A model generated the notes under the pieces. The model worked only from the letters and a program-made list of their open reading frames with translations. It made no database searches and was not told where the DNA came from. 20,671 bases of DNA from positions 1-20,671 of the IMG/VR virus record IMGVR_UViG_3300034198_006809; one strand, 5' to 3'. Positions 2-18,916 of the stretch are shown here, in pieces. Origin of the DNA: a virus. The stretch's first letter is position 1. Every line of letters starts with the position of its first letter. The position numbers were made by a program, and so were the translations under genes.

Positions 2-439
2 TTAGAGTTAGCCGCCTCTCTGTGCCGTCAGTTTGAGGGCTACCGTGCCAAGCCGTACCTGTGTCCGGCTGGCATTCCCACGATTGGATACGGCAGTACC
101 TATTACTCTGATGGCCGTAAGGTAGATTTAAACGATCCACCGATGGATGAACCCACGGCTCGGGCACTTTTGATGGTTGAGCTAAACCATACTTACCTAC
201 CCGGAGTTTTGCGTAACTGCCCCGGTCTAATTACTGACGAGCGTAAGTGCAACGCCATAGTTGACTTCTGCTACAACCTTGGTATAGGACGCTTGCAAAC
301 AAGCACGTTAAAGAGGAAAATCAACGCCAATGATTGGGACGGGGCCAAGGAACAACTGATGCTCTGGACTAAAGGGGGCGGCAAGGTACTGCCGGGACTA
401 CTAAAACGCCGCACTGCCGAGTGCGCACTGCTGGACTAA
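2..439 (+). CDS. Phage lysozyme (GH24 muramidase, endolysin), 5'-truncated by window edge
   Basis: Endolysin that cleaves the glycan backbone of peptidoglycan at the end of infection. The reading frame is open from base 2, so the start lies outside the window; the Met at 143 is internal and is not the start. The visible 145 residues cover nearly the whole GH24 fold. The catalytic Glu (codon 35-37) lies in FEGYRAKPY, and the Thr (codon 80-82) lies in PTIGYGST. The position between them, Asp in T4 lysozyme, is Cys here (codon 62-64, YLCPAG), giving an E/C/T triad that other phage GH24 enzymes also use. The later motifs FCYNLGIG, STLKRKIN and GGGKVLPGLLKRR are typical of the family. A signal peptide or signal-anchor cannot be judged because the N-terminus is missing. 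It lies 3 bp upstream of a virion gene, so it is probably expressed with the late genes. Confidence 0.93.
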   Translation, partial: LELAASLCRQFEGYRAKPYLCPAGIPTIGYGSTYYSDGRKVDLNDPPMDEPTARALLMVELNHTYLPGVLRNCPGLITDERKCNAIVDFCYNLGIGRLQTSTLKRKINANDWDGAKEQLMLWTKGGGKVLPGLLKRRTAECALLD

Positions 440-2509: not shown

Positions 2510-3375
2510 TGGCTAACAATGATCGCATCATTAACCCGGCAGCCCCTAACTTACCGTTGGGCGGTACAGAGTACGAACGACAGTGGCAAGATCAGTATTC
2601 CAACGTTTTGCGCCTGTACTTCAACCAACTGCGTAATGCACTGACCGAGTTACTTGGTAATGTTGGCGGGCGGTACGTTGCGTTCCCTTACGGCGCGTTT
2701 CACCAAAATGGGTATACAACTTTAACTAACGCTATACCGACTTCAGGCTCAACTGCAACTATTGTTGTTGGTTCAACTGTGGGATTTGCATCTGCTGGAA
2801 CTATTATTATTCAAAAAGAACTAATTAGTTATACAGGCAAAACTGCCACTACATTTACGGGCATTACTAGATCGCAGTACGGTTCATCAGGCGCTTCACA
2901 TGCTGCGGGTGTTTATGTATCGGAAGCTCAGGCGGTACCCTCTGCAACTACGGCTTTAGCTATCCCATTCGATACGACAGATGCTAGCAATCAAGTGTCT
3001 TTAGACCCCACAGATAACACCAAAGTTGTTTTTGCTATTGCTGGGTATTACAACATCCAGTTCAGCATTCAGCTTTTAAACGCTAAAAGTTCAATAGATA
3101 ACGTAACTCTTTGGTTTAGGCAGAACACTGTTGACATTCCATATTCGGCTGGTATTGCAACCGTTCCTCTTGGCCCCGGCACTACTTTAGGCGCAAGTCT
3201 TGTGGCTTGGAACCTAGTTTTACCTGTAAACGCTGGTGATAATATCCAGTTAATGATGGCTTCAGAATCTGGAGATACAGTAGCGGGCACTTATCCACCC
3301 GGAACAGCACCTGTGCACCCAGCAGCCCCATCCATCATTCTTACTGCAACATTTGTGTCTGCGCTTCCACCATGA
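2509..3375 (+). CDS. Virion structural protein with C1q/TNF-like C-terminal jelly roll, possible tail fibre or decoration protein
   Basis: 288 residues. The N-terminal about 65 residues (PNLPLGGTEYERQWQDQYSN, LRLYFNQLRNALTELLG) form an amphipathic helix likely to trimerise or attach to the particle. Residues about 66-145 form a Thr/Gly-rich beta module (STATIVVGSTVGF, GTIIIQKELISYTGKTAT, FTGITRSQYG) that I recognise from many unrelated phage tail proteins. Residues about 150-288 have the spacing of a TNF/C1q-like jelly roll (AGYYNIQFSIQL, VTLWFRQNTVDIPYS, VNAGDNIQLMMAS). Such domains often sit on fibres or capsid decorations and can contact the host surface; that role is inferred. The ATG overlaps the preceding stop, so translation is probably coupled. 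The codon use of the middle module is visibly more AT-rich than its neighbours. Confidence 0.68.
   Translation: MANNDRIINPAAPNLPLGGTEYERQWQDQYSNVLRLYFNQLRNALTELLGNVGGRYVAFPYGAFHQNGYTTLTNAIPTSGSTATIVVGSTVGFASAGTIIIQKELISYTGKTATTFTGITRSQYGSSGASHAAGVYVSEAQAVPSATTALAIPFDTTDASNQVSLDPTDNTKVVFAIAGYYNIQFSIQLLNAKSSIDNVTLWFRQNTVDIPYSAGIATVPLGPGTTLGASLVAWNLVLPVNAGDNIQLMMASESGDTVAGTYPPGTAPVHPAAPSIILTATFVSALPP
2704..2940 (+). other. AT-rich inserted beta module inside the 288-aa virion gene
   Basis: This stretch encodes the GSTVGF...SYTGKTATTFTGITR module. It uses mostly A/T in third positions (att att att, act att gtt gtt), unlike the GC-richer flanking genes. The protein motif recurs in many phage tail proteins, which suggests domain exchange. 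The limits are approximate. Confidence 0.5.
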
Positions 3376-3409
3376 TATTATCGACCAACCCCCATTTTGA
3401 GAGGCAAAA

Positions 3410-5971
3410 ATGAGCCTTCACGTACTAGCCGAGCACATGGCATCCAAAGGTCGCAACGGCGATTCGATGCTTGTCCATATGACCCCCGGAGAAGTCGCTG
3501 GACTTCATGCCCTTGCTGTTAAACATGGCGGGCAACTGACCATTAACCCAGATACGGGTTTACCCGAAGCTAACTTCCTTAAGTCTATTTTGCCAATGTT
3601 GGCAGGTCTTGCTCTTGGCCCCGCCGGTTTGGGTTTGACTATTGGTGGTTTATCAAGCGCGGCTACCGCGGGCTTGCTGGTTGGTGGTGTTACTGGATTG
3701 GCTACGGGCAGTCTGTCCAAAGGCTTGATGGCTGGTTTGGGTGCGTATGGTGGCGCAGGTATTGGCGAAGGATTGGTAAATTTAGGTAGTACCGGTTTTA
3801 GCCCCGAAACCCTTGCGCAAGCCAATAAATCTGTAGACCCAATTGCTGCACTTAGCGAAGCACCTAAACAGGCAATTCCTACGGGGTTTGAAGCTGCTAA
3901 AGCTGGTTTGACTACTGCCTTAGATGATCCTAAAGCGTTGTTAAATCAAATGGGTGGCGCAAAAGGCGCACTTACTACCGTAGGTATGGCGGCAGCCCCT
4001 ATCCTTGCTGACCAGATGGTTCCAACAACCACCAAAGCTCCTGCACCCATGAACCCCGGAATGATTCGCCAAAAGATTTGGGATGGCCGTCAGTTTGTGG
4101 ACGTTGGCCCTGTTGCGGCTGACCAGTTTGGTAACAAAAGTTTCTCTGATGTTTTTAAAGGTTATAGCGCCAAAGATGGCGGTATCGTTGCTTTAGCGGA
4201 TGGTGGTGCGGTGCGTATGGCTGATGGTGGTTATACACAAGATCAAATCAATGCCGCCCTTGCAAGCGAAATGGCTGCGCGCCCCGGTACTTCTCAGGCT
4301 GACTTGGCCAACTATGCTAAGTCCCAGTACGGTTTGACAGACGCACAAATTAACGCTGCATACGCCGCGCAACAACCCCCTGCCCAAGCGCAAACCGCAG
4401 CCCCAGTTGATTACAATAAATTGGCAACGCAGTATGTAGCAGGAGCAATGGGGCCAGACGAAACAACAAACCAATTTATCTCTGGTGCAAACACTGCCGG
4501 TATTGGTTTGACTCAACCTTTGGCCACTGCTTTGCAAAATTCAGGTTTGTCTGCTGGTGCTCAGTATGCACTGACTCACGCTGACATTGGCCCTTCTTCT
4601 AACGCTGCCGAAACTTATGGTGGTTTAAAGGGTTTGAGCAACAACATCAATTATGCGCTTAGCCAATACAACGCAGACCCTACCAATAAACTTAAAACTG
4701 CTGACCAAAAACGGGCAGAAGCAAGGGCGGCGCTGGGTAAAGATTTGACTGAAGCTGATGTTATTCGTGCAACAGGTAAAACAATCAACGAGTTGTTCCC
4801 CAAGACAACTACAGTAACGCCAACAGGTGTATACGGTGAATACGGCAACAACACAGGCAATCCTTTGACGTCAACTTCTGGCGACATTGGTATGAATCCT
4901 GACGGCACAGTGACTGTAACGCCTAATATTCCCGGTCGCCCCCAAGGTGGATTTACGGGCATGGGCCAAGTTAAAAATGCTTACACTGCTGGCGGTGGTA
5001 GTTTGGGTTACATTCCATACGCACCTAAAACGATTGACGAGTTCAACGCCAAATACGCTGACCGTATGAGTGGTGATTCCAAAGCCGCTTATGATTACCT
5101 TACAGGTAAAGCCGGTGCCGCATACCCTGTTAAATCCACAGTGGGTCAGATTTCTCGCCCATACGATGAGGCAGTTTTGGGCTACCCTGCACGGGGCAAC
5201 TTGCCATACATATATGACAAAGCCACCGGTAAAATGGTGCGTAACATGGACTACATAGCGCCAGCCCGTGATTCAAGCGGTAACGTGGTGTACGGTATGT
5301 CGCTGAACGACGTTAAGAAATATTTAACTGATTCACCATTGTCAGGCCAAGCCTTGTACGACTGGGCTAAAACAAACAACTTGTCTGCCCAACAGATTGC
5401 AGATGCCACAGGTCAATCTCTGTCACAGGTGTATGCGCAATTCCGCGCAGGTCAGCAGGCTGCGACAGCCACTGATAAAAAGAAAGCCGATGAAGCTGCT
5501 GCAACAGCCGCGGCAGCTAACGTTTCTCAAGATGGTGGTACGAGTGGGGGCGTTAGTGCTAGCTCTGGCGATAGTTCGGGCGACAGTGGCGATGGTGGAG
5601 ATGGAGGCACTTCCGCTAAACGCGGTGGATTGCAACTTGCGTACGCTATGGGTGGCATGTCTTACTCTGGCGGTGGCCTTGGCACATTGGGTGGTTACTC
5701 TGACGGTGGCCGTTTGCTCAAAGGCCCCGGTGATGGCGTGTCCGATTCCATACCCGCAACGATTGGCGCTAAGCAACAACCCGCACGCCTTGCCGATGGT
5801 GAGTTTGTAGTGCCTGCGCGTATTGTATCTGAGTTGGGTAACGGCTCAACAGATGCAGGTGCTAAGAAGCTTTACGCCATGATGGATCGCGTGCAACGTG
5901 CGCGGGGTAAAACCACAGGCAAAAACAAAGTTGCGGCCAATACCCGCGCTGACAAATATCTTCCCGCTTAA
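3410..5971 (+). CDS. Large virion-associated protein, probable internal/ejection protein
   Basis: 853 residues of a family I recall from environmental phages but whose function is not established. The N-terminus has MLVHMTPGEVAGLHALA and GGQLTINPDTGLPEA. It is followed at about residues 57-125 by a long Gly/Ala/Leu-rich hydrophobic stretch (LPMLAGLALGPAGLGLTIGG onward) that could enter a membrane. The middle is Ala/Gln-rich, with the motif ALADGGAVRMADGG near residues 262-275. The C-terminus has LLKGPGDGVSDSIPATIG, LADGEFVVPARIVSELGNGS and DAGAKKLYAMMDRVQRAR, a block shared by many phage tail and ejection proteins, and ends in a basic tail. The start is supported by GAGAGG at 3399-3404. The hydrophobic N-terminus and the position before the ejection-like cassette favour a DNA-delivery role over a tape measure. 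Confidence 0.62.
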   Translation: MSLHVLAEHMASKGRNGDSMLVHMTPGEVAGLHALAVKHGGQLTINPDTGLPEANFLKSILPMLAGLALGPAGLGLTIGGLSSAATAGLLVGGVTGLATGSLSKGLMAGLGAYGGAGIGEGLVNLGSTGFSPETLAQANKSVDPIAALSEAPKQAIPTGFEAAKAGLTTALDDPKALLNQMGGAKGALTTVGMAAAPILADQMVPTTTKAPAPMNPGMIRQKIWDGRQFVDVGPVAADQFGNKSFSDVFKGYSAKDGGIVALADGGAVRMADGGYTQDQINAALASEMAARPGTSQADLANYAKSQYGLTDAQINAAYAAQQPPAQAQTAAPVDYNKLATQYVAGAMGPDETTNQFISGANTAGIGLTQPLATALQNSGLSAGAQYALTHADIGPSSNAAETYGGLKGLSNNINYALSQYNADPTNKLKTADQKRAEARAALGKDLTEADVIRATGKTINELFPKTTTVTPTGVYGEYGNNTGNPLTSTSGDIGMNPDGTVTVTPNIPGRPQGGFTGMGQVKNAYTAGGGSLGYIPYAPKTIDEFNAKYADRMSGDSKAAYDYLTGKAGAAYPVKSTVGQISRPYDEAVLGYPARGNLPYIYDKATGKMVRNMDYIAPARDSSGNVVYGMSLNDVKKYLTDSPLSGQALYDWAKTNNLSAQQIADATGQSLSQVYAQFRAGQQAATATDKKKADEAAATAAAANVSQDGGTSGGVSASSGDSSGDSGDGGDGGTSAKRGGLQLAYAMGGMSYSGGGLGTLGGYSDGGRLLKGPGDGVSDSIPATIGAKQQPARLADGEFVVPARIVSELGNGSTDAGAKKLYAMMDRVQRARGKTTGKNKVAANTRADKYLPA

Positions 5972-5981
5972 GGAATAGATC

Positions 5982-6977
5982 ATGGCTGATCCACAAATTT
6001 CGCAGATAACGCAGTCGCAAACCACAATCCCCGACTATGCAAAACCGTACGTTGAGAATTTATTAGGGCAAGCGCAAGCCTATACTGACCCTTCTCAAAA
6101 CCCCTATCAGCAGTATATGGGGGAGCGTCAGGCGCAGTTCTCGCCTTTGCAGCAAATGTCTTACGACAATGCGGCGTTGATGCAGTCTCAACCCCAGTTG
6201 CAAGATGCCTCGGCTTTAGCGGGCATGGCTGGTCTGGGGGCACTCAATACACAATATACCTTCCGCCCCGCTAACTTCTCCTCTGCTGATGCTCAGAGTT
6301 TGATGAACCCCTACATGCAGAATGTGGTGGAACGTCAGCAACAGGATGCAACACGCCAAGCCGCTATCGCTGCCCAAGCTCAAGGTGCGCAAGCTGCACG
6401 CGCAGGCGCGTTTGGTGGAAGCGGTGACTATCTCATGCGTGCACAAGCCGCAGGTAATCTGGCACGTCAAAAAGGCGACATCCAAGCTACAGGGTTGAAC
6501 AATGCGTATGGCCAAGCTCTACAGCAATACAACACCCAGAACCAACTGAACGCTCAGCAACAACAGTTTGGCGCGGGTCTGGGATTGCAAGGTTTACAAA
6601 CAGCCAACACTGCCGCGCAGAATTTGGCCAACATTGGTCAGACGCAGTACGGTCAGAACATGGGCATCAATCAGTTGCAGAACCAGTACGGCTTGCAGCA
6701 ACAGCAGCAACAGCAAAACATTCTGAACAATCAGTATCAGGATTTCCTGAACTACCAGAACTCACCATATAAGCAGATGGGCTTCATGTCCGACATCTTG
6801 CGTGGCTTGCCTTTGACTCAGCAGTCTTCGACCATGTACCAGACTCCCCCTTCATTGGGTTCGCAGTTGGTTGGTGCAGGTACGTTGGCGGCAGGTGTTG
6901 CACTCAAAGCTAAAGGTGGTTCGATTAAAGAGAAGCCCGCTGGTCTGGCTGATCTGGCTTTATCCAAAATGGCGTAA
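5982..6977 (+). CDS. Gln-rich internal virion protein, small member of a putative ejection cassette
   Basis: 331 residues, strongly Gln/Ala/Asn rich. It starts IPDYAKPYVENLLGQAQAY. A central helical region at about residues 105-190 carries MNPYMQNVVERQQQDATRQA, AQAARAGAFGGSGDYL and GDIQATGLNNAYGQALQQYN. I recognise this block from virion-associated proteins of aquatic podovirus-like phages. A run of seven Gln lies at residues 239-245. The C-terminus has an Ala/Gly hydrophobic stretch (GAGTLAAGVALKAKGGS) followed by a basic tail. AAGGA overlapping the previous stop gives a Shine-Dalgarno 7 bases before the ATG. By order and size it resembles the small ejection protein of T7 or P22 (gp14, gp7); this is an analogy, not visible homology. 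Confidence 0.6.
   Translation: MADPQISQITQSQTTIPDYAKPYVENLLGQAQAYTDPSQNPYQQYMGERQAQFSPLQQMSYDNAALMQSQPQLQDASALAGMAGLGALNTQYTFRPANFSSADAQSLMNPYMQNVVERQQQDATRQAAIAAQAQGAQAARAGAFGGSGDYLMRAQAAGNLARQKGDIQATGLNNAYGQALQQYNTQNQLNAQQQQFGAGLGLQGLQTANTAAQNLANIGQTQYGQNMGINQLQNQYGLQQQQQQQNILNNQYQDFLNYQNSPYKQMGFMSDILRGLPLTQQSSTMYQTPPSLGSQLVGAGTLAAGVALKAKGGSIKEKPAGLADLALSKMA
6696..6716 (+). repeat. CAG/CAA tract encoding seven glutamines
   Basis: Seven consecutive CAG or CAA codons occur in the Gln-rich ejection-like gene. The mixed codons make it a less slippery tract than a pure triplet repeat. Confidence 0.9.
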
Positions 6978-6986
6978 GGAAGTAAC

Positions 6987-8627
6987 ATGGCGATCGATCA
7001 AAGAAACATCTCCGCTGAACTGCGCATGATGAATGACCAGCAATTGCAGCAATACGCTGCGATGCACAAAGCCGACCCTTACATTTTCCCTTTGGCTTTC
7101 CAAGAGAGCCAGAACCGTCAAGCATTGCGTGCAGGGAAAACTGCACAGATGGCTGGTATGGAACAGCCCAAGGTGGCGGATGCCGCACTGATGGCAATGA
7201 CGCCAACAGCAGCCCCTGAAATGCAGGGCATCGGCAAGCTACCTGCTCCCAATATGCAACACATGGCTGACGGCGGTATCGCAGGGTTTGACGAAAGCAC
7301 TAACTCACCCATGTCCCGCGAAAACTTAGATGGTATGGGCAACACGGGTGGTATGTTCAACTACGCCCAAGATGGTGGCGGCGTTATGCGCATGGCAGCG
7401 GGTGGACACATTCCACGTTACGGTGGCCCCACAGATGGTGAAGACCCCGATCAAGTTGTGTCTGATGATAATAGGTCTTTTATTGAAAAACTGTTGTATT
7501 CAAATCTTACCCCCGCAGAACGGGCGCGTAAGAAATCATTGGAAGACCAAGCAGAAGGCAGGCGCACTACTAAAACTTCTCTTAACGCGGAACGCGACCG
7601 CAATATGGCAGAAGTTAACCGTAGTAACCCTAACAAAACCCAAGAAACACTGGAGCGTGTGGGACTTGCTACTCGCCAAAACCAACCTACTCAACAAGTA
7701 GTTGGACAGCCAGCCACCCCTGCTAATCCACCGAGCGTTAAGGTTCCTAGCGTGGGCACAAACAAACCCGCGCCTGCGCCTGCGCCTGCGGCACCTACCG
7801 AAACCGCCGCTACTACTGTAGGTACACCCGCGTACACACCAAGCAACCCTGAAGACATCCGCAGAACCGCCGACACAATGGCCAAGCCTGAGTTGGAAGA
7901 AATCCAAAATGCTTATAAGCCATACGCCGAGCAGTTTGGTCAGGAACGCACTCGTCTTGCAGAACGCGAAAAAGGCAACCTCAGTGATGCATTAATCCGC
8001 GCAGGTTTGGGCATGATTGGCGGCAGGTCACAGTTTGCCGGAGTTAACATTGGCGAAGGTGGTATCCAAGGTCTAAATGCTTACCAAGAAGCGCAGAAGG
8101 CCGATGATGCCGCACGTAAAGCTTTGATGCAGTCTGAGATGCAAATGGCTGCTGCGCAACGCGCTGAACGTACAGGTGCCCGTAGAGATGCCGTGTCTTT
8201 GACGCATCAAGCAGAACAGTCTAAGCAGGTGGCCGTACAGTTGGCAAACCAATCTCAGCAGATTAAAAATACCGAAGCGTTCCAACAAGGCCAGCTCGAA
8301 CATTACAAACGCGCTGATGCTGCCGCTATGCTAGCTGCCCAAAACCGTGGTTTGGGCGCAAACGCTAACGAGAACAAGTTAATTTTGAACGCTTTGGTTA
8401 AAGAGCGTGACGATATTGCTAAACAACTTGATCCAAAAGCCAACCCCTTTATTCATCTGTCTAAAAATGCGGAAGAAAAGGCACGTTTGGTCGCACGTCG
8501 AAATCAGTTAAACGCAGCTATTGCAGGGATGACGCCAGAAGGTACAATCCCATCTGGGCTAACGCTCGCAGGCTCCCCCACTGGAAGTGGTGGCGGGGAT
8601 AAAGTTATAGATTTCAATAAGATATAG
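6987..8627 (+). CDS. Coiled-coil internal virion protein, middle member of a putative ejection cassette
   Basis: 546 residues. The N-terminus (ISAELRMMNDQQLQQYAAMH, DPYIFPLAFQESQNR) and the block KLPAPNMQHMADGGIAGFDE mark a family I recall from environmental phages without a proven function. Residues about 95-145 are Gly/Met-rich (ADGG, GGGVMRMAAGGHIPRYGG). Residues about 225-285 are a Pro/Ala/Thr linker with an (AP)n run. Residues about 300-460 look helical and coiled (RLAEREKGNLSDALIRAGLG, then EAQKADDAARKALMQSEMQM and AAAQRAERTGARRD). The Shine-Dalgarno AAGGAAG lies just before the ATG. It sits between a small Gln-rich and a giant multidomain gene, the relative place of T7 gp15 or P22 gp20, which suggests a DNA-ejection conduit protein. 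This role is inferred. Confidence 0.6.
   Translation: MAIDQRNISAELRMMNDQQLQQYAAMHKADPYIFPLAFQESQNRQALRAGKTAQMAGMEQPKVADAALMAMTPTAAPEMQGIGKLPAPNMQHMADGGIAGFDESTNSPMSRENLDGMGNTGGMFNYAQDGGGVMRMAAGGHIPRYGGPTDGEDPDQVVSDDNRSFIEKLLYSNLTPAERARKKSLEDQAEGRRTTKTSLNAERDRNMAEVNRSNPNKTQETLERVGLATRQNQPTQQVVGQPATPANPPSVKVPSVGTNKPAPAPAPAAPTETAATTVGTPAYTPSNPEDIRRTADTMAKPELEEIQNAYKPYAEQFGQERTRLAEREKGNLSDALIRAGLGMIGGRSQFAGVNIGEGGIQGLNAYQEAQKADDAARKALMQSEMQMAAAQRAERTGARRDAVSLTHQAEQSKQVAVQLANQSQQIKNTEAFQQGQLEHYKRADAAAMLAAQNRGLGANANENKLILNALVKERDDIAKQLDPKANPFIHLSKNAEEKARLVARRNQLNAAIAGMTPEGTIPSGLTLAGSPTGSGGGDKVIDFNKI
7770..7790 (+). repeat. GCGCCT simple repeat encoding an Ala-Pro run
   Basis: Three and a half copies of a 6-bp unit encode alternating Ala-Pro in the linker of the 546-aa protein. 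Such tracts often vary in length between close relatives. Confidence 0.9.
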
Positions 8628-8631
8628 CATC

Positions 8632-11600
8632 ATGGCATATTCGATTCGCCTCCCAGACGGAACCCTTGTACAGAACATACCTGACGAAGTAACCCCGGAG
8701 GCGGCGAAAGCTAAGATTCTTCAAGCCCGTCCTGACCTTGCCCCCAAAGAGCGTTCACTGACTGAGGCTGCAACCGATATAGGCGCTAGTGCCATATCGG
8801 GGCTTGGCAGTTTGGTGCAGCTACCCGGCCAACTGTATGGGTTGGCCACCGGTAATATGGAAAAGACCGGTACATTGGGGCTTGGGGAAAACATTCAGAA
8901 GTACGGCGAAGAAATGAAATCCGCGGGTTTAAAAGCCCGTGAAGCCGCCCGCGCACGTAATGTGCAAGAAGCCGAAAAGCGTGGCCAAGGCGCTGCGTTT
9001 GTAACATCTTTTGCCGAAACCCTCAAAGACCCTGCCCTGCTTACATCGTTCCTTGCTGAGCAGGTGCCACAGCTTCTAGTACCCGGAGCCGGTGCTGGTA
9101 TTGCAGGGCGTGCAGCCCTCAAGCGTGGTATTGCCGCGGGGGTTGAAGAAGCTGCCGCTAAAGAAGCCGCTGTTCAAGCAGGCACACGTGCCGCTATTGG
9201 TGTAGGTGCAGTGCAACAAGGCGCTGATGTTGGTTCACAAGCTTATGAAGATATTTACAAGAAGCTTATCAAGGATGGTAAGCCTGCGCCTGAAGCTGCG
9301 GGTATTGCTCTCAACCTAGCCCGTGCCGCTGGTGTATCAGGTGCAGTCATATCTTTGTTGGCGCAACGCCTCCCCGGTGCAAAAGCTTTGGAAGAAGCTC
9401 TGGCTGGTAAGAAGGGTGTGGCCGGTGTATTGGCTGGCGCTGGTAAAGGCGCGCTGGGTGAAGCCTTAAGCGAATCCGTAGAAGAAGGTGGTGGTAAGTT
9501 CACACAGAACTTGGCCATGCGTGAAGTTGATCCTACTCAAGCATTGATGCAAGGCGTTGGCGCAACCGCTGGTCAGGCGGCTGTTGGTGGTGTTGGTATG
9601 GGCGGCGGTGCGGGTGCTATCAGTGGCCTGCGTGGAGGCGAAGCTCCTACGGTACAACAAATACCCGGGCAGCCAACTTTTACAGAAGCCCAAGCACAGG
9701 CCGCACGTGAAGCACGCGCCCGTGAACAAATGGGTGTCAAGCAAGGCCGTGAAGCCCGTGAGGGTGAAAAGTTAATTGATGCAGAAGCTAAAGCGCAAGC
9801 CGCCCAAGAGCAGGCTGTCCGCGTACAGGCTGAGCAACAAGCCGCCCAAGAACTACAAGCATTACGTAACCAACGCCAAGCTGAACTGGAGCAAGCGTTC
9901 CCCAAAGATTACAGCGATGTAATGCAGAGAACCAACTCGTATGCAGAGTTGTATCAAGAAAAGCAAGCTCTGCTGGGGCAGACAAAAACTAAAGAAGTAA
10001 AAGCACGTCTTAAAACCCTTGATGGTTTGATGGAAAGCATCGTTGAAGAAGACAACCGTGTGCCTAACGAGTTTGCACGGATGCAAAAGGAAAACGCCAA
10101 GGTCATCAAGAAGTTACCCAAAGAATTGCAAGCCAAGTATGCGGCTACTGCGTTCACTGTGCCAGAGCCACAGCAGATGGAGATGCGTGCGTTTATTGAC
10201 CAACCACCACCCATACAACAAACTAATTTATTGGGTCAGCCAATTGAGCAAGAAGCGCCTGCACCAGCCGAGCCTGAGTTTAAAACTGTAAAAACACGAG
10301 AAGAAGCGCAAGCTGCCTTGGATGCGCAGAACAGACGCAAAGCACGCGCTGGGCAAGCCGAACGCAACGCCGCCAAAGATGCAGGCCAACTTGGTTTGTT
10401 TACGCGGGTTGGTACACCAACCGAACAAGCCGCCGTGGTGGAAGAAAAGCCACCAGTTACCGAACCTGTGGTGAGGCAGAAGCCCACTCCCGAAACAGTT
10501 GCGCCTGTCATCACAAGCGAAACGCTTGGCGTGTTGGGTATTGGCCCCACTGCTGTGATGCGCAAGCCCGGTCATGCTATCCAAGGTCTGGACATTACCA
10601 AACCAGAAGATGCGGCTGAAGTCAGGAACATGCTGAACATCTATAAGGAAGGTCGCAGCGAAAAGATTACCCAGAAAATTGACGCGTTCCTTGCACGCCC
10701 TGAGTTCCAAGGCTTGCCAGCTCCTGCACCCAAACCAACACCCGCACCAAAGGTTGAAGCTGCACCTACGCCAGCGCCTACCGTTGCAGAAGCACCTGCA
10801 CCCACACCTATAGTGGAAGCTCCTATTGCTGAAGCGCCTGCTGTTGCGCCACCTGCTACTACACCAGAAATTAAACAACCTGCTGAGAAGCGGGCGGCTA
10901 ACAAAGCGGCACAGCCATCCGCAAAGAAGGTTAAGAAAGAAGAGGCCAAAAATGAAGTTGTACAACCAACTGCTGAGCCTACTCCTGCGCCTACCCCTGC
11001 CAAAGCAGTGGAAGCACCGCCTGCTCCTACGCCTCCTAAAGTTGTAAAGAAGACTCCAAAGAAAGTTGAGGCCAAGAAAGAAGAACCCAAGGTTGAACCT
11101 AAAAAGGAAGAGCCAAAGGTTGAGCCTAAGAAAGAAGAGCCAAAGGTTGACAAGGCGCTTGAGAAGGCGCGTGAGACTGCCGATGATCTTGACCTCGATC
11201 CTGATACAACCAAAACTAAAGTCAAATCATTTGCTAAGCGTTTGCACAAGGCAGGCTTGATCGATGACATCAGTTTGAACGCGGTTGAAAGCATATCCAA
11301 AGACAAGGATATGGGTACTCAAGACTTGTTAGATGAAATTAAGTTTGCGCTTGAAGCCTACGAAGGTAAACAAAAAGAAGCACCCGCTAAGCCTGAACCC
11401 AAGGTGGAGGCCAAGCCCGAACCAAAAGTTCCGGAGCCACAAAAGGCACAGATTGAAAAGCCGTTCAAACGTTTAACAGAAGATCAGAAGCAGGAACTCG
11501 AAGAGTTCTATGGTGAGAAGCGTGACGCCGATGCCTTCTGGGACAAGCTACGTGCTGACGTTATAACGTCAATCAACAAAGGCTCAAAGGCCGTTGCACA

Positions 11601-14600
11601 AGCGATCCGTGAGATCGTCAATCAGATTGCCGCCGGTGTACTTGCAGTTGGCTTGGTGTTTAACCCCACGGCACTGAACAATCAGTACAACATCAATCTG
11701 CCAAAGACGTTCAAAGAAACGATCTCGGTAACTGCGCCTGTACCAGAAGCCGCTAAAGGCAAGATGTCGCCCCTTGCACAGAGCGTGTATGAGGCTATGG
11801 CACCCGTTGCCATGAAGACCGGCAAGTGGTTTATGGTTGCCGACAAGCCCAACGGCATGCTGCATATCTTCAAAGAAGATGGTTCACATTTCATATCTGA
11901 CGCTACCTTGTACGGCAAAGATAAGGGCGATGTACTAGCTAACGTATCTTCGCTTGAGGGCGGTGCAAAGATCACCCCCGCTGGTAAGTTCACACTGAAA
12001 CAATCTGAAGCTGAATACGCTGGTAAAGTTGCATTGCTTTTGGTTGAATCCCAAGACTCAACAGGCTACATCGCTGTCCATGCAGCAGATGTCAGCACGC
12101 CATCTGAGCGCAGGCTCGAGCGTTTGGAAACCCCAACTTCTGCCGATAACCGCATTAGCTACGGCTGTATTAACACCAAGCACGAAACGTTCATCAACGA
12201 AATTAAACCTCATATCAATGAGCTTGACGGTGGCCTGATCTTTGTGTTGCCTGACGCAACTGAAAAGACTGCTGAAATGTTCGCGCCTGAGACAAAGGTT
12301 GTTGAACGTACAGAAGCCCCTGCCCCCACTGCCAAGACAGAAGGCGCGCGGGAAATTGCAAAAAAAGAAGAAACGCTTGCGGAAACCCAACGCCTGCAGA
12401 AACCTGCGGCTGACCTATCTTATGTGGATCGCCCTGTATCTGTTGAGGCTGACTTGCAAGCTAAGCTGCAAGAAGGCGATGTCAAAGGCGCATTGCAGGC
12501 TATCCTTAAAGCGCCCAAAGGTGTGTACAACGATCTTGACCGCGCAGTAGCACGTCGCATCTTGTTGTCTAACAAACTGCCAACCATCGAGATGGTAGCT
12601 GAAGGCGCCTTGGGTCGAGAAGGTAATAACATTGTTGCCGGTCAATACGATGCGCAAACCGATAAGATTCAGTTGGTCAATGGTTATGCTGGCGCCCACG
12701 TACTATTGCACGAGCTTGTACACGGATTCTTACACCGCGCCATTGCCCTACAGGGCGCAGGCAAACTCAACAACGTTGGTATCCGTAACCTGCAAGAGTT
12801 GTATGAATACGTAGCTAAGGCCAATCCAAAACTGATTGACGAATACGGCATGACTAACCTCAGTGAATTTGCGTCTGAGGCAATGTCCAATAAAGCCTTC
12901 CAAGCTGCGCTGATGGCTATCCCATACCGTCGCAACAGCAACGTGTTCACCGCGTTTGCAAACGCTGTATTGAAGGCACTTGGACTGGCAGCAGATGCTC
13001 AACACACTGCGCTTGCATCAGCCATGCTGACTATTGACAGCATCATGACGGAAGGCCGTAAGATTCAAGAATCTTTGACAGGCACAGAAGTTGAAGGTTC
13101 ACTGCCCGGTATCGCCCCCGTTATGGTAAAAGAGTTGGATGATGCAACTCGCCAATCTATCAAAGATATTCAAGCGCAGTTCCCAGTAGGAGATCAATTA
13201 GGGGTTGGTGGTGTTGTTACACAAGCATTGAAGGGCGTGCAGTCAGCCAGAGAAAACTCTGGAATCATGAACACATTCCGTCAAGCAGTGGCTGACAAGT
13301 ACGCTACGGTTGAAGCCAAAGTATCTACCATGTTCTCTCAGGGCGTGCGAGATTATTTTGGCAACATTAATCCTATGCTGTTGGCACGTCAGGCAGAAGA
13401 TAGCGCCAAGGTTGTGATGGACTTCTTCCGTGCAGGTGGCGTGCGTTTGACTAAAGATGGTTTGGTGGAATCTTACAAGCAGGGTAAGTCCATGGTGACT
13501 GCGCTTCAAAAGGTTTCTGAATATGCTCGTGCAAACAACCTGTCTTACGAAGATGCAAAGAGCGAAGTGTCGACCGTATTGGAAGGCCATCGTTTGCACA
13601 ATATTAACGAAGAGCACAACAAGCCCTTGGAAGCATCTGCTCTGATCCTTGAACAGCAAGGTAAGAACAAAGAAGCTGATGCTGAGCGCAAGAATAAGAT
13701 TACTCTGCACATGGATCTGAAGCAGATCGCTACGCTGGAAAAGGCATACCAACAATCCGCTGGTATCAGGGAAATCCAAGACGATCTGAACGCAACTCGT
13801 ACGCAGGCTGTCGACTTGATGATTGCTACAGGTCGCTTGACTAAAGAGCAAGGTCAGTTTTGGAAAGACAACACTGCATACGTACCGTTCAGCCGCGTGT
13901 TTGAAGAAGCCGTACCTAACATGGTGTACCGTGGCAAGGGCTTGGGCGTGCTGAAAAAATTCCCGGGCATGGAAGGCTCGTTGGGCCGCCCTGTTAAAAA
14001 CGTACTCGACAGCTATGCCAACCGTCTGAGTTGGATGGTAGAAGATTCCATGAAAAACCATGCAGCCGTCAAGCTGCTTGAAACGATGGAGTTGGGTGGC
14101 TTCGCACAAGAAGTGCCGACCAAAGATAAGGCCAAGAACCCCAATCTGGTCGTGAGCCTGTACCGTGACGGAAAGCCCGTGTTGTTTGAAGTGCAGAACG
14201 AATACGATCTGCTTGCCTTCCAGCAAGCACCTGAGATGATGAATGGCCTGACCAAAGCGTTGGGTGCTACATCTCGCTGGTTGCGTCTATCGATTACTGC
14301 AATGCCGCCCTTTGCAATCAAGCAGGTGATTGAAGACGCGCAACGTGCCGCTTTCTATTCTGGTGTGGAGCGCCCATTAGTTGTAGCCATGAAGACTTTA
14401 TACAACATGCCCCGTGTGTTCTTTGGGGAAGTTACAGGTCGCAAGTCGCCTATGGTCAAACGCATGGAAGAACTTGGTATTGTGGGTGACTATGACTTCA
14501 ACGTGTATCAGCCTGTAGGTGACATTGAAAAAGAGATTGGCGCAACCAAACGCAACGTAGGGCAGAAGTTGTTTCATCGTCTTGAGCAATTTACCAAAGC

Positions 14601-15789
14601 CTCTGACTTGGCGGCACGTCTGGCTGTTTACGAAGAAACCATGCGGGATACCAAAGGCGACGAAGTGCTTGCCCAAACCCGTGCACGTGAATTAATTAAC
14701 TTTAGCCGCCGCGGTTCAAGCTCTGCAATGCGCACTGCCGCACGTGTGATTCCATTCTTTAATGCCTACGCACAAGGCATGGATGTGCTGTACCGATCAG
14801 CCACAGGTTTGGATTCTTCGTCTGCCTTAAACCGTGCCGCTGCCCGTAAATTATTCTTAAGCCGTGTGGCCATGATGACTGCGTTGGGTTTTGCATACGC
14901 ACTTGCCATGAGTGACGATGATGGCTACAAGAACGCAACAGATGATGTACGTGACAACAACTGGATTCTTCCTAATGGTTATAAAATTGGTGTACCAAAA
15001 GAACTTGGCTTCTTGTTCAAGTCAATCCCAGAACGTGTGGTTGAGTACTACAACCGCTATGGCACACCAGAAGAGCAACGCTTAACGGAAGCGCTGGGCA
15101 GTGTGGTCAAAGGTGCAATGTCTGCGTATGGTTCGCCCAACGTGACACCATCGTTCATCAAGCCAATCCTTGAGAACATGACCAACTATTCGTTCTTCTT
15201 GCAACGTGAGTTGGAATCTGCATCGCTCAAGCGTTTAGAACCCGGCCAACGGTTTACTTCTAGCACTTCCGAACTTGCTAAAGCGTTGGGTGAACAAACT
15301 AATATATCGCCTATTAAGATTGATAACTTCTTGCGTGGTATGTTTGGTATGGCTGGTTCAACCACACTGCTGGCAACTGACGCTGTGCTGAACCCAACAC
15401 GCCCTGATCGCCCCTTGTATCAGATGCCATTCGGTAGCTTGTTCTTGTACGACACCATTGGTGGCCGCGCTAAAAACGAGTTCTATGACCTGCAAGAACG
15501 CGTCAGCCAAGCCGATGCTACATACAAAAACTTGCTTGAGAAAGACCCTGAAAAAGCACAAACGTATCTTGAGAAAAATGAAGCGTTGATTAGTATTGCA
15601 CCGACTATCAACAACACATTGCAGCAACTGAGCACACTGCGCAGACTGCGTACCATGTACGAGCAAGGCACTGAAGAAATGCTTGGCATGTCTAGCGCGG
15701 AGCGACGTAAATCAATTGACGAAATTCGTGAAGCTGAGAACGAAACGTTATCGTTTGTGCGGGAACTCAATAAATCTTTGGAAGATTAA
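8632..15789 (+). CDS. Giant multidomain virion protein: YkuD L,D-transpeptidase + HExxH metallopeptidase + LPD38-like region
   Basis: 2385 residues, probably an ejected polyvalent protein. In order: RLPDGTLVQNIPDEVTPEAA motif at the N-terminus; Ala/Gly-rich hydrophobic helices about 110-345; coiled coil about 349-450; Pro/Ala/Lys linker about 697-840 with KKEEPKVEP repeats; a short hydrophobic segment near 999-1010; a YkuD-type L,D-transpeptidase domain about 1060-1208 with TPAGKF (1115-1120), His1150 and SYGC (Cys1179); a zincin-like domain about 1265-1450 with HELVH (His1360, Glu1361, His1364) and SEFASEAMSN (Glu1412 or Glu1416 as possible third ligand); and a long C-terminal region resembling large polyvalent protein domain LPD38, including SRWLRLSITAMPPFAIKQ near 1880 and a membrane-like helix about 2073-2092. 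The ATG follows the previous stop closely with only a weak Shine-Dalgarno. The domain calls rest on motifs; the virion location is inferred from position. Confidence 0.8.
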   Translation: MAYSIRLPDGTLVQNIPDEVTPEAAKAKILQARPDLAPKERSLTEAATDIGASAISGLGSLVQLPGQLYGLATGNMEKTGTLGLGENIQKYGEEMKSAGLKAREAARARNVQEAEKRGQGAAFVTSFAETLKDPALLTSFLAEQVPQLLVPGAGAGIAGRAALKRGIAAGVEEAAAKEAAVQAGTRAAIGVGAVQQGADVGSQAYEDIYKKLIKDGKPAPEAAGIALNLARAAGVSGAVISLLAQRLPGAKALEEALAGKKGVAGVLAGAGKGALGEALSESVEEGGGKFTQNLAMREVDPTQALMQGVGATAGQAAVGGVGMGGGAGAISGLRGGEAPTVQQIPGQPTFTEAQAQAAREARAREQMGVKQGREAREGEKLIDAEAKAQAAQEQAVRVQAEQQAAQELQALRNQRQAELEQAFPKDYSDVMQRTNSYAELYQEKQALLGQTKTKEVKARLKTLDGLMESIVEEDNRVPNEFARMQKENAKVIKKLPKELQAKYAATAFTVPEPQQMEMRAFIDQPPPIQQTNLLGQPIEQEAPAPAEPEFKTVKTREEAQAALDAQNRRKARAGQAERNAAKDAGQLGLFTRVGTPTEQAAVVEEKPPVTEPVVRQKPTPETVAPVITSETLGVLGIGPTAVMRKPGHAIQGLDITKPEDAAEVRNMLNIYKEGRSEKITQKIDAFLARPEFQGLPAPAPKPTPAPKVEAAPTPAPTVAEAPAPTPIVEAPIAEAPAVAPPATTPEIKQPAEKRAANKAAQPSAKKVKKEEAKNEVVQPTAEPTPAPTPAKAVEAPPAPTPPKVVKKTPKKVEAKKEEPKVEPKKEEPKVEPKKEEPKVDKALEKARETADDLDLDPDTTKTKVKSFAKRLHKAGLIDDISLNAVESISKDKDMGTQDLLDEIKFALEAYEGKQKEAPAKPEPKVEAKPEPKVPEPQKAQIEKPFKRLTEDQKQELEEFYGEKRDADAFWDKLRADVITSINKGSKAVAQAIREIVNQIAAGVLAVGLVFNPTALNNQYNINLPKTFKETISVTAPVPEAAKGKMSPLAQSVYEAMAPVAMKTGKWFMVADKPNGMLHIFKEDGSHFISDATLYGKDKGDVLANVSSLEGGAKITPAGKFTLKQSEAEYAGKVALLLVESQDSTGYIAVHAADVSTPSERRLERLETPTSADNRISYGCINTKHETFINEIKPHINELDGGLIFVLPDATEKTAEMFAPETKVVERTEAPAPTAKTEGAREIAKKEETLAETQRLQKPAADLSYVDRPVSVEADLQAKLQEGDVKGALQAILKAPKGVYNDLDRAVARRILLSNKLPTIEMVAEGALGREGNNIVAGQYDAQTDKIQLVNGYAGAHVLLHELVHGFLHRAIALQGAGKLNNVGIRNLQELYEYVAKANPKLIDEYGMTNLSEFASEAMSNKAFQAALMAIPYRRNSNVFTAFANAVLKALGLAADAQHTALASAMLTIDSIMTEGRKIQESLTGTEVEGSLPGIAPVMVKELDDATRQSIKDIQAQFPVGDQLGVGGVVTQALKGVQSARENSGIMNTFRQAVADKYATVEAKVSTMFSQGVRDYFGNINPMLLARQAEDSAKVVMDFFRAGGVRLTKDGLVESYKQGKSMVTALQKVSEYARANNLSYEDAKSEVSTVLEGHRLHNINEEHNKPLEASALILEQQGKNKEADAERKNKITLHMDLKQIATLEKAYQQSAGIREIQDDLNATRTQAVDLMIATGRLTKEQGQFWKDNTAYVPFSRVFEEAVPNMVYRGKGLGVLKKFPGMEGSLGRPVKNVLDSYANRLSWMVEDSMKNHAAVKLLETMELGGFAQEVPTKDKAKNPNLVVSLYRDGKPVLFEVQNEYDLLAFQQAPEMMNGLTKALGATSRWLRLSITAMPPFAIKQVIEDAQRAAFYSGVERPLVVAMKTLYNMPRVFFGEVTGRKSPMVKRMEELGIVGDYDFNVYQPVGDIEKEIGATKRNVGQKLFHRLEQFTKASDLAARLAVYEETMRDTKGDEVLAQTRARELINFSRRGSSSAMRTAARVIPFFNAYAQGMDVLYRSATGLDSSSALNRAAARKLFLSRVAMMTALGFAYALAMSDDDGYKNATDDVRDNNWILPNGYKIGVPKELGFLFKSIPERVVEYYNRYGTPEEQRLTEALGSVVKGAMSAYGSPNVTPSFIKPILENMTNYSFFLQRELESASLKRLEPGQRFTSSTSELAKALGEQTNISPIKIDNFLRGMFGMAGSTTLLATDAVLNPTRPDRPLYQMPFGSLFLYDTIGGRAKNEFYDLQERVSQADATYKNLLEKDPEKAQTYLEKNEALISIAPTINNTLQQLSTLRRLRTMYEQGTEEMLGMSSAERRKSIDEIREAENETLSFVRELNKSLED
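11074..11151 (+). repeat. 27-bp tandem repeat (about 2.9 copies) encoding KKEEPKVEP
   Basis: Units lie at 11074-11100, 11101-11127 and 11128-11151 and differ only at a few, mostly synonymous, positions. They lie at the end of the Pro/Ala/Lys linker of the giant protein, and shorter PEPKVE echoes follow at 11392-11440. This is a charged, probably extended spacer. Confidence 0.9.
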
Positions 15790-15815
15790 AAAAACCCCCG
15801 GTGTTTAGCCGGGGG
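15788..15815 (-). terminator. Rho-independent terminator for leftward transcripts at the convergence point
   Basis: Read on the minus strand, CCCCCGG, a 7-base loop (CTAAACA) and CCGGGGG form a 7-bp GC stem directly followed by seven T. On the plus strand the same hairpin follows the giant gene's stop but has no T-tract after it, so it is a strong leftward and at most a weak rightward terminator. The A-run overlaps the TAA stop of the giant gene. A weaker 5-bp stem (GCAAC/GTTGC, 15840-15854) lies just upstream in the leftward direction. Confidence 0.88.
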
Positions 15816-15864
15816 TAATCCCAAAGGAGAAAGCAAACTGCAACTTACCGTTGCGGTTCTATTA

Positions 15865-16086
15865 TTACTTAATTCGCCAAACCCGTATACCCCACATGCC
15901 ATTTTCTATGCGGGGAATTACCTTGACCCTAAAGCCTCGGTTCTCGGCACGCTGGATGATGCTACGCTCCATACGCCCGTGGTTGATACAGGGCAGGAAG
16001 AAAGAGGAGCCAAGCCTGAACTTGCGCCACTCAATCTGTACCTGTATGCCCTCAATCTCAAGCGGCTTTTCTATCTTCTGCGTCAT
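15865..16086 (-). CDS. Small conserved phage protein of unknown function (GSSFFLPC...GIRVWR type)
   Basis: 73 residues, basic. The central FRLGSSFFLPCINHGRMERS and terminal GMWGIRVWRIK match a small protein family I recall from many phages (a core like GdSFFvPc, then helix A..G and GvRVWR) whose role is unknown. I chose the ATG at 16086 because the family core follows it at the usual distance; an upstream in-frame ATG at 16119 would add 11 residues deeper inside the primase gene. It overlaps the 3' end of the primase gene by 29 bp in another frame, with no clear Shine-Dalgarno, so it is probably translated by coupling. It is the last gene before the leftward terminator. Confidence 0.65.
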   Translation of the reverse strand: MTQKIEKPLEIEGIQVQIEWRKFRLGSSFFLPCINHGRMERSIIQRAENRGFRVKVIPRIENGMWGIRVWRIK

Positions 16087-18916
16087 CGTTTGGTAGTGCC
16101 AACACCGCTTCCGCATCAAACACGTGGCTCATGGTGTCGTCAATTAACAACGCATTAACTGGGGGTGCTGCCATCAGCGTACCTTTTGCCATACGCTTCT
16201 TTACAGAATCCACACTAACGCCTGTATTACGCAGGGCGTTCACGGTGTCGTGATAGCTGACCTGATTCTTGGCGCACCATTCTTTGAACTTCTTTTGCAC
16301 AATGAACAGACGCTTGGTATCAAGCTCATACCGGATTAGCAACTCGCCCCGCGGTTCTCGTACCGGTGCTGCAGGTAATCCATTCTCGCTAGGGTTATCC
16401 CTAACCAACAAAATGTTGTTAATGTTGGCCATGACAAACGAACCGATTGCTGTAGCGCCATCTGTTGGGGCAGCTTTAATGTCGCCCTTGTTAGCCTTGA
16501 GCATTACCACAAGCCAGTTGAAGATGCGCTTGACGTCAAAGTCAATCAAACCCAGTTGGTTGGCAATCAAGCCGCCCGTGATACCCAGTGCACCGATAGA
16601 CGACCAGAAGCGTTCACGCTGACCCAAACCTGCCGCTGTATCCAAACGCAACTGCACATCGCGCAGAGTATCCAGAACTTCAGGTAGGTTGTTGACCACA
16701 TACTTCATGAAGATTTCACCGGCATGGCCATAGTTGGTTGCCAGCTTGCCAAACAACGCATCGGTAAATTCTTTTGAGAATGTCTCGTCACGGCGAATCT
16801 TCAACTCAATGATACGCATCATCTCGCCTTCAGGAAATTCCTTTAGGGAAAACAACTTATCGTACAAGCTGCTATTGGATGATGTGATTGCAAGCAAGCG
16901 CCAGAACGTATTATTCAAACGCTCAGCGTTGGTCTGTGACTCCATGCGGTTCTTGCCGCGGCCTTGGGTGATAGCGTATGACAACTGCGACACCATTTCA
17001 TCACGCATGTTGGTGACTTCATCGATCGTTGCAGGTATGTTGTTCAGAACCCCGAAGCGGTGAATCTTGGCGTTGTACGTATCATCGTTCTGAAGTAGTA
17101 GGTCGAACGGTTGCCCCCAGATACTATTGATAGCCATCTGCACGGTTGACTTACCTGTGCCAGAGCCGGGACTCATCAGGTTCACAATGCCACCGCGCAC
17201 TTGAGTAAACGGCATCAGCACCCCACCAAACCCAAGCATGAACGCGAAGGCTTGAGCTTCCATACCGTTGTTGTTATAGAAGTTAACCACAGACTTCCAT
17301 TCGTCTAGTTCGCCCTTCTTTGACAGCAGCGCACAGGTATGCAAGATTGAACTTGCAGGGGGGCTATACCTTACGCCTGTTGTTGTGATCTCACGATCGC
17401 CAAGGATGAAAGTCTTCTCATCCGTCCAACCAAATTGGCTTCTTACTTTTTCAGCTTGTCCCATAACTTGCAATTCCTTTACCCAACGGGAAACATAAAA
17501 CATTAACTCATCTACAGTCTTACCCAGTACCGCCATGCCCTGCGTTGCGATGGCATCACGAAAGCGATCTTTTGACAACACACTGACCAACGGCACTGAG
17601 AACTCACGCACACCATCTTTAGGTAGGTGCAGGCGCATCCATAGAACTTCACCAGCCACAGGGTCATGCATACGCTTGACCACGTAGAAATCATTTTCGT
17701 AAATCAACTTATCGTTGCCTTCTTCTTCGGTTTTGTTAGGGTCGCCACGGCGGTAGATGCCACCGTACTTGCCACGAAAAAAGGGGAACGGAAAAGCTGG
17801 AATGTTATAGACCCGCACATCTTTTGTGCCAGAGTCAACAGTTGTGATTGTGTTGTCTTCTTCGGTTGCTTCAATGATCTCTTTACCCAACACGATGGGC
17901 GAACCAAACTTACCTTTATGCTTGCAGTCTTTGCAACCCCCGGGTCGTAAGTCTTCAAACGTTGCACAGGTATACGGGCCTTTGGTTTCGCCAGCCTTCT
18001 TGTCTGTCTCGTAAGAGTTGTAGCTTTCATGTTGGCTCGACATCTCATGAATGGCAGTCTCACGATCTATGCAAAGATGTGCAATGGAAAGCCCCGCACG
18101 CCACAAAGGTTCTGCTACTTGCTTCTGGTGCTCAACGATGTGGTTCAGTTGGCCACACCCCTCAACCTTCAGGGCAATAATCTTTTCAAAGCGATACGAA
18201 TTGTTCTGCCCCATGAGGGCTTTGCTGGTCGCGTCAGACCCAGCGTTCTTGATGTAGTCGGGCACTTCAAAGGGCAACGCGTCAGTAGACTGGCTTGGCT
18301 CGGGCGCACCCAGTGCGGCTGCGAAATCAAACAGGTCAACCTTGCCGTCACCACTCATGTACTCCACGGGAAGTGGGGCATCAGGATTTTTGAAGTTGTG
18401 TGTAGTTGGCACGCGCAGGATACGCGCCATGTCAGTTGTGCAAGCGGGATCAGCAAATAAGCCGCGTTCAGTGCAAACATTCTTCAAACGCTTGGCCACA
18501 GGTAGCCATGTGTTCTTGTCAATACTCTCAGGCAGTACCCAGTACGCATGCACTCCGTTACCAGAGTTGATGCAGATGGGTTGAGGTAGGTTCAGGTCAG
18601 CGCAAAACTGTCCCAGTGCCGCCATTGCCAGATCACGTGATGCGTAATCTTTTGTGGGGCCACAGTCCAGATCAAGCCAAAATGCTTTGGCCTTGTATGC
18701 GTTGGCGGCTAGCCTACGGGGTGGCGTAATCTCTGGGTCAAACGAAAACATCGCATAGTACGTGTCTGCGTTGGCGTCATAGATATCTTGGATTTCCGTG
18801 ATGAGAGATGGAATGTCCGATGCAAAACGTGTACGTAACTTTTCCTGCTTAATACCGACCGCGCAGTACTTGCCAGCGTCGGGCAGAACTGCATTTAAAA
18901 ATTCGGTCAATGTCAT
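16058..18916 (-). CDS. Primase-polymerase (AEP-like) / superfamily 3-like helicase fusion
   Basis: 952 residues; a replication initiator that probably primes and unwinds phage DNA. The N-terminal about 200 residues resemble archaeo-eukaryotic primases: acidic pair Asp82/Asp84 in FWLDLDCG, then SGNGVHAYW (118-126) and the Arg-rich ARILRVPTTHN (164-173). A middle cysteine set (Cys254, Cys317, Cys328, Cys331 in CKDC) suggests a zinc knuckle. The C-terminal ATPase has Walker A GSGTGKST (584-591), Walker B-like PATIDEV (Asp632, Glu633), and LLAITSSN with a sensor-type Asn681. The upstream stop is 14 bp away, and no Shine-Dalgarno is apparent before the ATG (ATTACCTCT precedes it). It follows the SSB-like and helix-turn-helix genes in one leftward operon. 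A DUF927-type helicase is the likeliest ATPase family, but I cannot verify this. Confidence 0.88.
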   Translation of the reverse strand: MTLTEFLNAVLPDAGKYCAVGIKQEKLRTRFASDIPSLITEIQDIYDANADTYYAMFSFDPEITPPRRLAANAYKAKAFWLDLDCGPTKDYASRDLAMAALGQFCADLNLPQPICINSGNGVHAYWVLPESIDKNTWLPVAKRLKNVCTERGLFADPACTTDMARILRVPTTHNFKNPDAPLPVEYMSGDGKVDLFDFAAALGAPEPSQSTDALPFEVPDYIKNAGSDATSKALMGQNNSYRFEKIIALKVEGCGQLNHIVEHQKQVAEPLWRAGLSIAHLCIDRETAIHEMSSQHESYNSYETDKKAGETKGPYTCATFEDLRPGGCKDCKHKGKFGSPIVLGKEIIEATEEDNTITTVDSGTKDVRVYNIPAFPFPFFRGKYGGIYRRGDPNKTEEEGNDKLIYENDFYVVKRMHDPVAGEVLWMRLHLPKDGVREFSVPLVSVLSKDRFRDAIATQGMAVLGKTVDELMFYVSRWVKELQVMGQAEKVRSQFGWTDEKTFILGDREITTTGVRYSPPASSILHTCALLSKKGELDEWKSVVNFYNNNGMEAQAFAFMLGFGGVLMPFTQVRGGIVNLMSPGSGTGKSTVQMAINSIWGQPFDLLLQNDDTYNAKIHRFGVLNNIPATIDEVTNMRDEMVSQLSYAITQGRGKNRMESQTNAERLNNTFWRLLAITSSNSSLYDKLFSLKEFPEGEMMRIIELKIRRDETFSKEFTDALFGKLATNYGHAGEIFMKYVVNNLPEVLDTLRDVQLRLDTAAGLGQRERFWSSIGALGITGGLIANQLGLIDFDVKRIFNWLVVMLKANKGDIKAAPTDGATAIGSFVMANINNILLVRDNPSENGLPAAPVREPRGELLIRYELDTKRLFIVQKKFKEWCAKNQVSYHDTVNALRNTGVSVDSVKKRMAKGTLMAAPPVNALLIDDTMSHVFDAEAVLALPNDDAEDRKAA

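Follow-up and report, generated by a model that had tools for sequence, protein, structure and literature searches.

A YkuD-fold domain lies in the middle of a giant protein encoded by a three-gene ejection cassette on a 20,671-nucleotide stretch of viral DNA (positions 1 to 20,671 of IMG/VR record IMGVR_UViG_3300034198_006809, the whole stretch being referred to as the window). The most fitting reading of this domain is a peptide-editing module that is optional, mobile, and delivered by the virion. With a probability of roughly 0.6, the module of the ejected giant would edit wall peptides during entry, as an optional activity complementary to that of enzymes cutting glycan. On re-calling, the three open reading frames (ORFs) of the cassette proved to be exactly those first noted, in coordinates as well as in lengths (331, 546, and 2385 amino acids, aa). 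The cassette and the parts of the giant are as follows:

5982..6977, plus strand: small cassette gene, 331 aa, 19% Gln, in a gp14-like position; probable ejection/internal virion protein (ORF, PHROG match, conserved order)
6987..8627, plus strand: medium cassette gene, 546 aa, in a gp15-like position, without known domain (ORF, conserved order)
8632..15789, plus strand: giant gene, 2385 aa, large polyvalent ejection protein (LPD38; core homologous to JC1 gp69)
11599..11661, plus strand: conserved hydrophobic/amphipathic helix, aa 990-1010, QAIREIVNQIAAGVLAVGLVF, travelling with the YkuD domain and possibly in contact with a membrane (comparison of 68 giants)
11764..12270, plus strand: YkuD-fold (L,D-transpeptidase/carboxypeptidase) domain, aa 1045-1213, with TPAG at 1115, H1150, and C1179 (alignment, AlphaFold model, Pfam hits of homologues)
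12427..13056, plus strand: zincin-like (MPTase-type) domain, aa 1266-1475, with HELVH at 1360-1364 and SEFASE downstream
13729..15621, plus strand: conserved C-terminal core, with LPD38 inside at aa 2096-2267 (window 14917-15432)

The YkuD-fold domain and its origin

The presence of a YkuD-type domain in the giant, as the original prediction had proposed, was borne out by invariant motifs, the Pfam scores of homologues, and the modelled fold. TPAG, His1150, and SxGC (Cys1179) are invariant across an alignment of 21 diverse copies, and Pfam YkuD scores 6 of 24 homologous giants (best 2.1e-5), with the copy in the window itself matching neither Pfam YkuD nor NCBIfam. Searches of the module against PDB sequences with phmmer and a profile returned only NHL-repeat (TRIM) and other chance-like matches, and it was fold comparison that settled the identity. 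An AlphaFold model covering aa 946-1213 (mean predicted local distance difference test, pLDDT, of 77.9, with the catalytic part mostly at 80-96) gave VIA Z values of 12.9 for LdtMt1, 12.8 for B. subtilis YkuD, and 12.7 for H. pylori Csd6, these fits having root-mean-square deviations of 2.2-2.7 over 112-128 residues. The top Foldseek match was Pgp2 (4.6e-5), and nearly all PDB structures matching the modelled domain were L,D-transpeptidase-type enzymes. As modelled, the domain matches the YkuD fold far beyond chance.

The fold, TPxG, His, and Cys are common to the phage domain and the bacterial YkuD enzymes (LdtMt1/2, YkuD, Csd6, Pgp2, and DpaA), whereas the phage domain differs in having Tyr or Phe before GC and in being embedded in a protein of 2,000-4,450 aa. 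The canonical H-X14-17-(S/T)HGC spacing and second His were not found, the domain having H1150, S1176, and SYGC; because of this variant motif, it was filed as a YkuD-fold domain of a divergent subfamily rather than as a canonical L,D-transpeptidase.

Relatives of the module also occur in bacterial genomes, where 452 loci encode them, mostly as small standalone proteins. The best 80 of these 452 loci were kept, and the hosts among them included Sphingomonas, Burkholderiales, Chromatiaceae, and others. These cellular relatives share a DNRISYGCIN-type signature, i.e., the variant motif of the phage domain, and those inspected by eye carry an N-terminal hydrophobic, signal-like stretch. One of them matches Pfam YkuD at 2.5e-4, and some plasmid-borne relatives are annotated as L,D-transpeptidase. 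Judging from these sequences, the phage domain is most likely an acquired cell-wall enzyme, and the module is best read as a descendant of a secreted proteobacterial L,D-transpeptidase-like family.

The ejection cassette and the large polyvalent protein

The assignment of the three genes to the internal (ejection) proteins of a podovirus-type phage is well supported as a class, since conserved gene order, a match to phrog_4287, homology of the giant's core to the virion protein JC1 gp69, and a zincin-like match to an ejectosome all point to it. The small protein matches phrog_4287 'DNA ejection protein' with an E-value of 1.2e-11. A homologue of the medium protein adjoins the giant directly upstream in 70/70 loci with a match, and a homologue of the small protein is the second gene upstream in 55 of 63; the small-medium-giant order recurs across dozens of viral contigs and is the same in JC1. 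At three loci, the small and medium genes are apparently fused into a single ORF of 842-911 aa (L099 3572-6304, L117 4548-7073, and L118 3861-6410). PDB and Pfam searches gave no match for the medium protein, a PDB sequence-profile search with the small and medium profiles yielded nothing useful, and tblastn of both proteins against cultured phages found no match. The giant is also carried, with 100% identity over the aligned parts, by a 61.6-kb IMG/VR record, and this near-identical record encodes a large terminase, a portal, and tail-tubular-like proteins as well.

JC1 gp64 (332 aa), gp68 (510 aa), and gp69 (4515 aa) have all been detected in CsCl-purified virions, gp69 with 51 peptides (PMC9144972). 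The profile of the giant core matches the C-terminus of gp69 with 73 bits in hmmsearch and an E-value of 5e-18 in hhalign. This DarB-like giant of JC1/Bcep22 has the homologous C-terminal core and the small-medium-giant arrangement and is collinear with the YkuD giant of locus L012; unlike the window giant, it carries an N-terminal SLT domain and no YkuD domain. JC1 gp64 has homologues in the small genes next to the YkuD giants of a second group, and homology of gp64 and gp68 to the small and medium families of the window was undetectable. The virion argument therefore rests on the giant core and on the gp64 homologues beside that second YkuD group.

Near its C-terminus, the giant matches Pfam LPD38 at 4.5e-29 (102 bits, cut-off 27), a domain that Iyer et al. 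2017 found only in phage-type large polyvalent proteins (PMC5512222). With the LPD38 group of those proteins, the window giant and its relatives have in common LPD38, zincin, and ART-PolyVal domains, great length, and late virion-gene neighbours. Vibrio phage 1.211.A has an LPD38 giant after its coat, head-completion, and stabilization genes, close to where P22 has gp16. Order and relative gene size are also those of T7 gp14-gp15-gp16, in which the largest protein is likewise linked to a wall enzyme (SLT within residues 1-156 of gp16; PMC8954989). The likeness to T7 that had been proposed for the cassette holds for order and relative size, and no sequence homology to the ejection proteins of T7 or P22 was found.

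With ejectosome chains, the giant has only the zincin-like fold in common. Its zincin-like domain matches the PhiM1 ejectosome (PDB 8vb2 residues 289-517) with Z 9.8 and N4 vRNAP 2134-2367 with Z 8.7, the next structural group, anthrax lethal factor, lying far below at Z 5.3. PhiM1 has internal enzymatic inserts (PMC11440229); we came across no report that PhiM1 or N4 has a YkuD domain, and the RNA polymerase of N4 was not seen in the window. The zincin-like match covers the PhiM1 TEP region, called endolysin/exotransglycosidase-like by its authors (PMC11440229), which might instead be a polyvalent-protein metallopeptidase. A match of giant aa 89-509 to phrog_2206 'virion RNA polymerase', which covers an Ala-rich stretch, was given no weight.

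Mobility of the module and its relation to SLT and lysozyme

The enzyme domains of these giants are exchangeable, being YkuD and zincin-like in the window and ART, methylase, helicase, InPase, and RadC in relatives. ART-PolyVal was found in 11 of 24 YkuD giants and in 2 of 32 YkuD-less giants scanned. The position of SxGC ranges from aa 1027 to aa 2926 in giants 2166-4452 aa long, and in nearly all of 68 giants a helix of the pattern AIRxIIxxIHAGVLAVAMIFNP stands 163-189 residues ahead of it, followed in the AlphaFold model by a low-confidence stretch. Compared with the window, L024 is 76% identical at the C-terminus and just 32% in the module, and L013 is 58% identical in the module and without detectable similarity at the C-terminus; the module thus travels apart from the remainder of the giant. 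A precise insertion of 365 aa, encompassing the module, distinguishes the sister sequences L024 and L028 ('empty site'), and its flanks are 67% and 86% identical. On the core tree, YkuD presence changes at least 7-10 times in a sample partly selected for YkuD; since the YkuD-positive members were partly drawn with a YkuD query, their proportion of 31/64 is not a frequency. A second C-terminal type of giants matches PHROG 'DarB-like antirestriction'. The 4.7-kb contig L124, in which a YkuD module is joined to a P22 gp4-like start (2841-4742), may be an assembly chimera and was left aside.

Domain searches upheld the view that the giant has no SLT, lysozyme, or GH domain. SLT gave no match in the 61.6-kb near-identical record or in any of the 48 related viral records first tested. 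The further claim that YkuD takes the place of SLT found no support in position, SLT and lysozyme being N-terminal where they occur (SLT at 7e-14 in JC1 gp69 and, in the literature, in the Bcep22 giant, PMC6630229; Phage_lysozyme2 in the L050 giant) and YkuD being internal. In Palmer, a separate SLT/NlpC gene stands directly before the LPD38-type giant.

Strict substitution, in which YkuD replaced SLT or lysozyme as the wall-opening enzyme for DNA entry, was the view of the original prediction and finds its best case in a collinear pair, the L012 giant with YkuD at 937-1202 and no SLT found, and JC1 gp69 with N-terminal SLT and no YkuD, which align over methylase/helicase (34% identity) and core (26%). 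In addition, SLT matched in 0/40 YkuD-bearing records and lysozyme in 0/24 YkuD giants. However, the two kinds of enzyme occupy different places in the protein, and 31 of 32 YkuD-less LPD38 giants are also without a recognised wall enzyme (the remaining one has a lysozyme), close relatives lacking the module carrying no recognised substitute. P22-like phages, moreover, do without a wall-hydrolase domain in their gp16 homologue (PMC8954989).

A further point against strict substitution is the E. coli phage-plasmid pSTEC648_2 (CP061838.1, L298, record 40327-47974), where the gene just upstream of the YkuD giant UIU63841.1 (YkuD module 9e-34, LPD38-type core 4e-13) is a GH104 gene; the other loci examined gave no GH104 match. 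This element shares with the window the LPD38-type core, the YkuD module, and a related DUF927 gene (28% identical) on the opposite strand, and differs in its separate GH104 gene and in small and medium genes of other families. The element, 60.5 kb long and recorded as an E. coli plasmid, resembles a phage-plasmid akin to the window, and a search of 5,426 E. coli genomes turned up no close copy of it. Empty sites together with the co-occurrence of YkuD and GH104 favour reading YkuD as optional and not as an obligatory SLT substitute. No YkuD enzyme is known to cut glycan strands, so the domain would be expected to complement rather than copy SLT. Taken together, strict substitution is unlikely. 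Among homologous giants, either SLT or YkuD can occur, at different positions and not at one site. Of the original prediction, the ejection cassette and the YkuD domain are supported, and the replacement of SLT is not.

Possible role in DNA entry

In the favoured mechanism, the giant would combine a conserved C-terminal carrier (LPD38) with exchangeable enzyme domains, a module of ~270 residues (amphipathic/hydrophobic helix, then YkuD catalytic domain) having presumably been inserted mid-giant. Ejected along with the DNA, the giant would put its YkuD domain in the periplasm, where the helix could, speculatively, hold the domain at the inner membrane. Fold and active-site residues suggest stem peptides of the peptidoglycan around the DNA conduit as the target of the YkuD cysteine. 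The domain may trim or exchange stem peptides or tie strands off around the channel, leading to local loosening or resealing, and the neighbouring zincin-like domain may, by the reasoning of Iyer et al. 2017, release parts after entry. Trimming of the Csd6/Pgp2 type is slightly favoured by the top Foldseek match to the model, which is weak evidence, and exchange would correspond to a Tlde1a-like activity (PMC9638812). A bolder version is rather doubtful, namely that a widespread, uncultured podovirus-type lineage delivers in its virions, as a mobile module, an L,D-transpeptidase that lays or rearranges cross-links at the DNA conduit and so makes entry wall-sealing instead of wall-cutting.

Several points weigh against peptide editing during entry. 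The virion location of the window giant is deduced from JC1, whose giant has no YkuD domain; the alignment of the LPD38 core to gp69 is remote (18% identity), and the searches gave no direct sequence link to the ejection proteins of T7 or P22. The hydrophobicity of the helix is only moderate, and its role may be structural. In the giants, the His of SHGC is replaced by Tyr or Phe (SYGC/SFGC), and 25 residues separate His from Ser as compared with 14-17 in the motif of PMC9638812; with this replacement and the longer spacing, the predicted activity is not assured.

Alternatively, YkuD could be an injected effector that plays no part in DNA passage and acts after entry on host wall metabolism, by channel sealing, a block of superinfection, or a Tlde1a-like disturbance of the wall. 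Its place among exchangeable effector domains (ART-PolyVal, methylase, and helicase) fits this proposal, as does the type VI secretion system effector Tlde1a, a delivered protein of L,D-transpeptidase fold (PMC9638812). However, apart from the zincin-like domain there is no separate signal for periplasmic release of YkuD, and the peptidoglycan target and ejection route make action during passage the simpler account, so that a purely post-entry role appears improbable. A catalytically dead domain, or one serving as a peptidoglycan-binding or structural part of the conduit, would agree with SYGC/SFGC in place of SHGC, but is very improbable given the invariance of Cys, His, and TPxG in 21 diverse copies and the same variant motif in cellular relatives.

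Outside the cassette, the window contains one further candidate wall enzyme:

2..439, plus strand: Phage_lysozyme gene (2.7e-32), probable endolysin outside the cassette (holin-like gene immediately upstream in sibling record L209, judged by eye)

Because of the preceding holin-like gene, this lysozyme was set aside as a virion enzyme. A DUF927 primase/helicase-like gene (window 16058-18916, minus strand) is convergent with the giant, and a strong terminator-like hairpin lies between the two at 15794-15816.

We found no ejection or polyvalent protein with a YkuD domain in the open-access papers searched. The survey of large polyvalent proteins lists lysozyme, SpoIID-type, and DD-peptidase wall enzymes, and the words YkuD and transpeptidase are absent from its main text (PMC5512222). 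Among 50,697 phage records, three queries with the module detected it in no giant and only in short genes of Stenotrophomonas phages; a fourth gave further short matches in large phages, one of them annotated L,D-transpeptidase. Such short YkuD-like matches outside ejection giants occur in XacN1, PhiXhv-12/15/16, Ep032, and DLP_5/DLP_3/Summit, and pSTEC648_2 carries the only giant with the module that we found in a named host.

The wall enzymes in the literature examined on ejection and polyvalent proteins cut glycan or D,D-peptide bonds. If the peptide-editing reading is true, a virion-delivered YkuD domain would represent a second chemistry for DNA entry and would link phage entry to L,D-cross-linked walls. 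Giants with and without YkuD, SLT, or lysozyme would then offer a natural modular system for testing directly what wall enzymes contribute to DNA entry.

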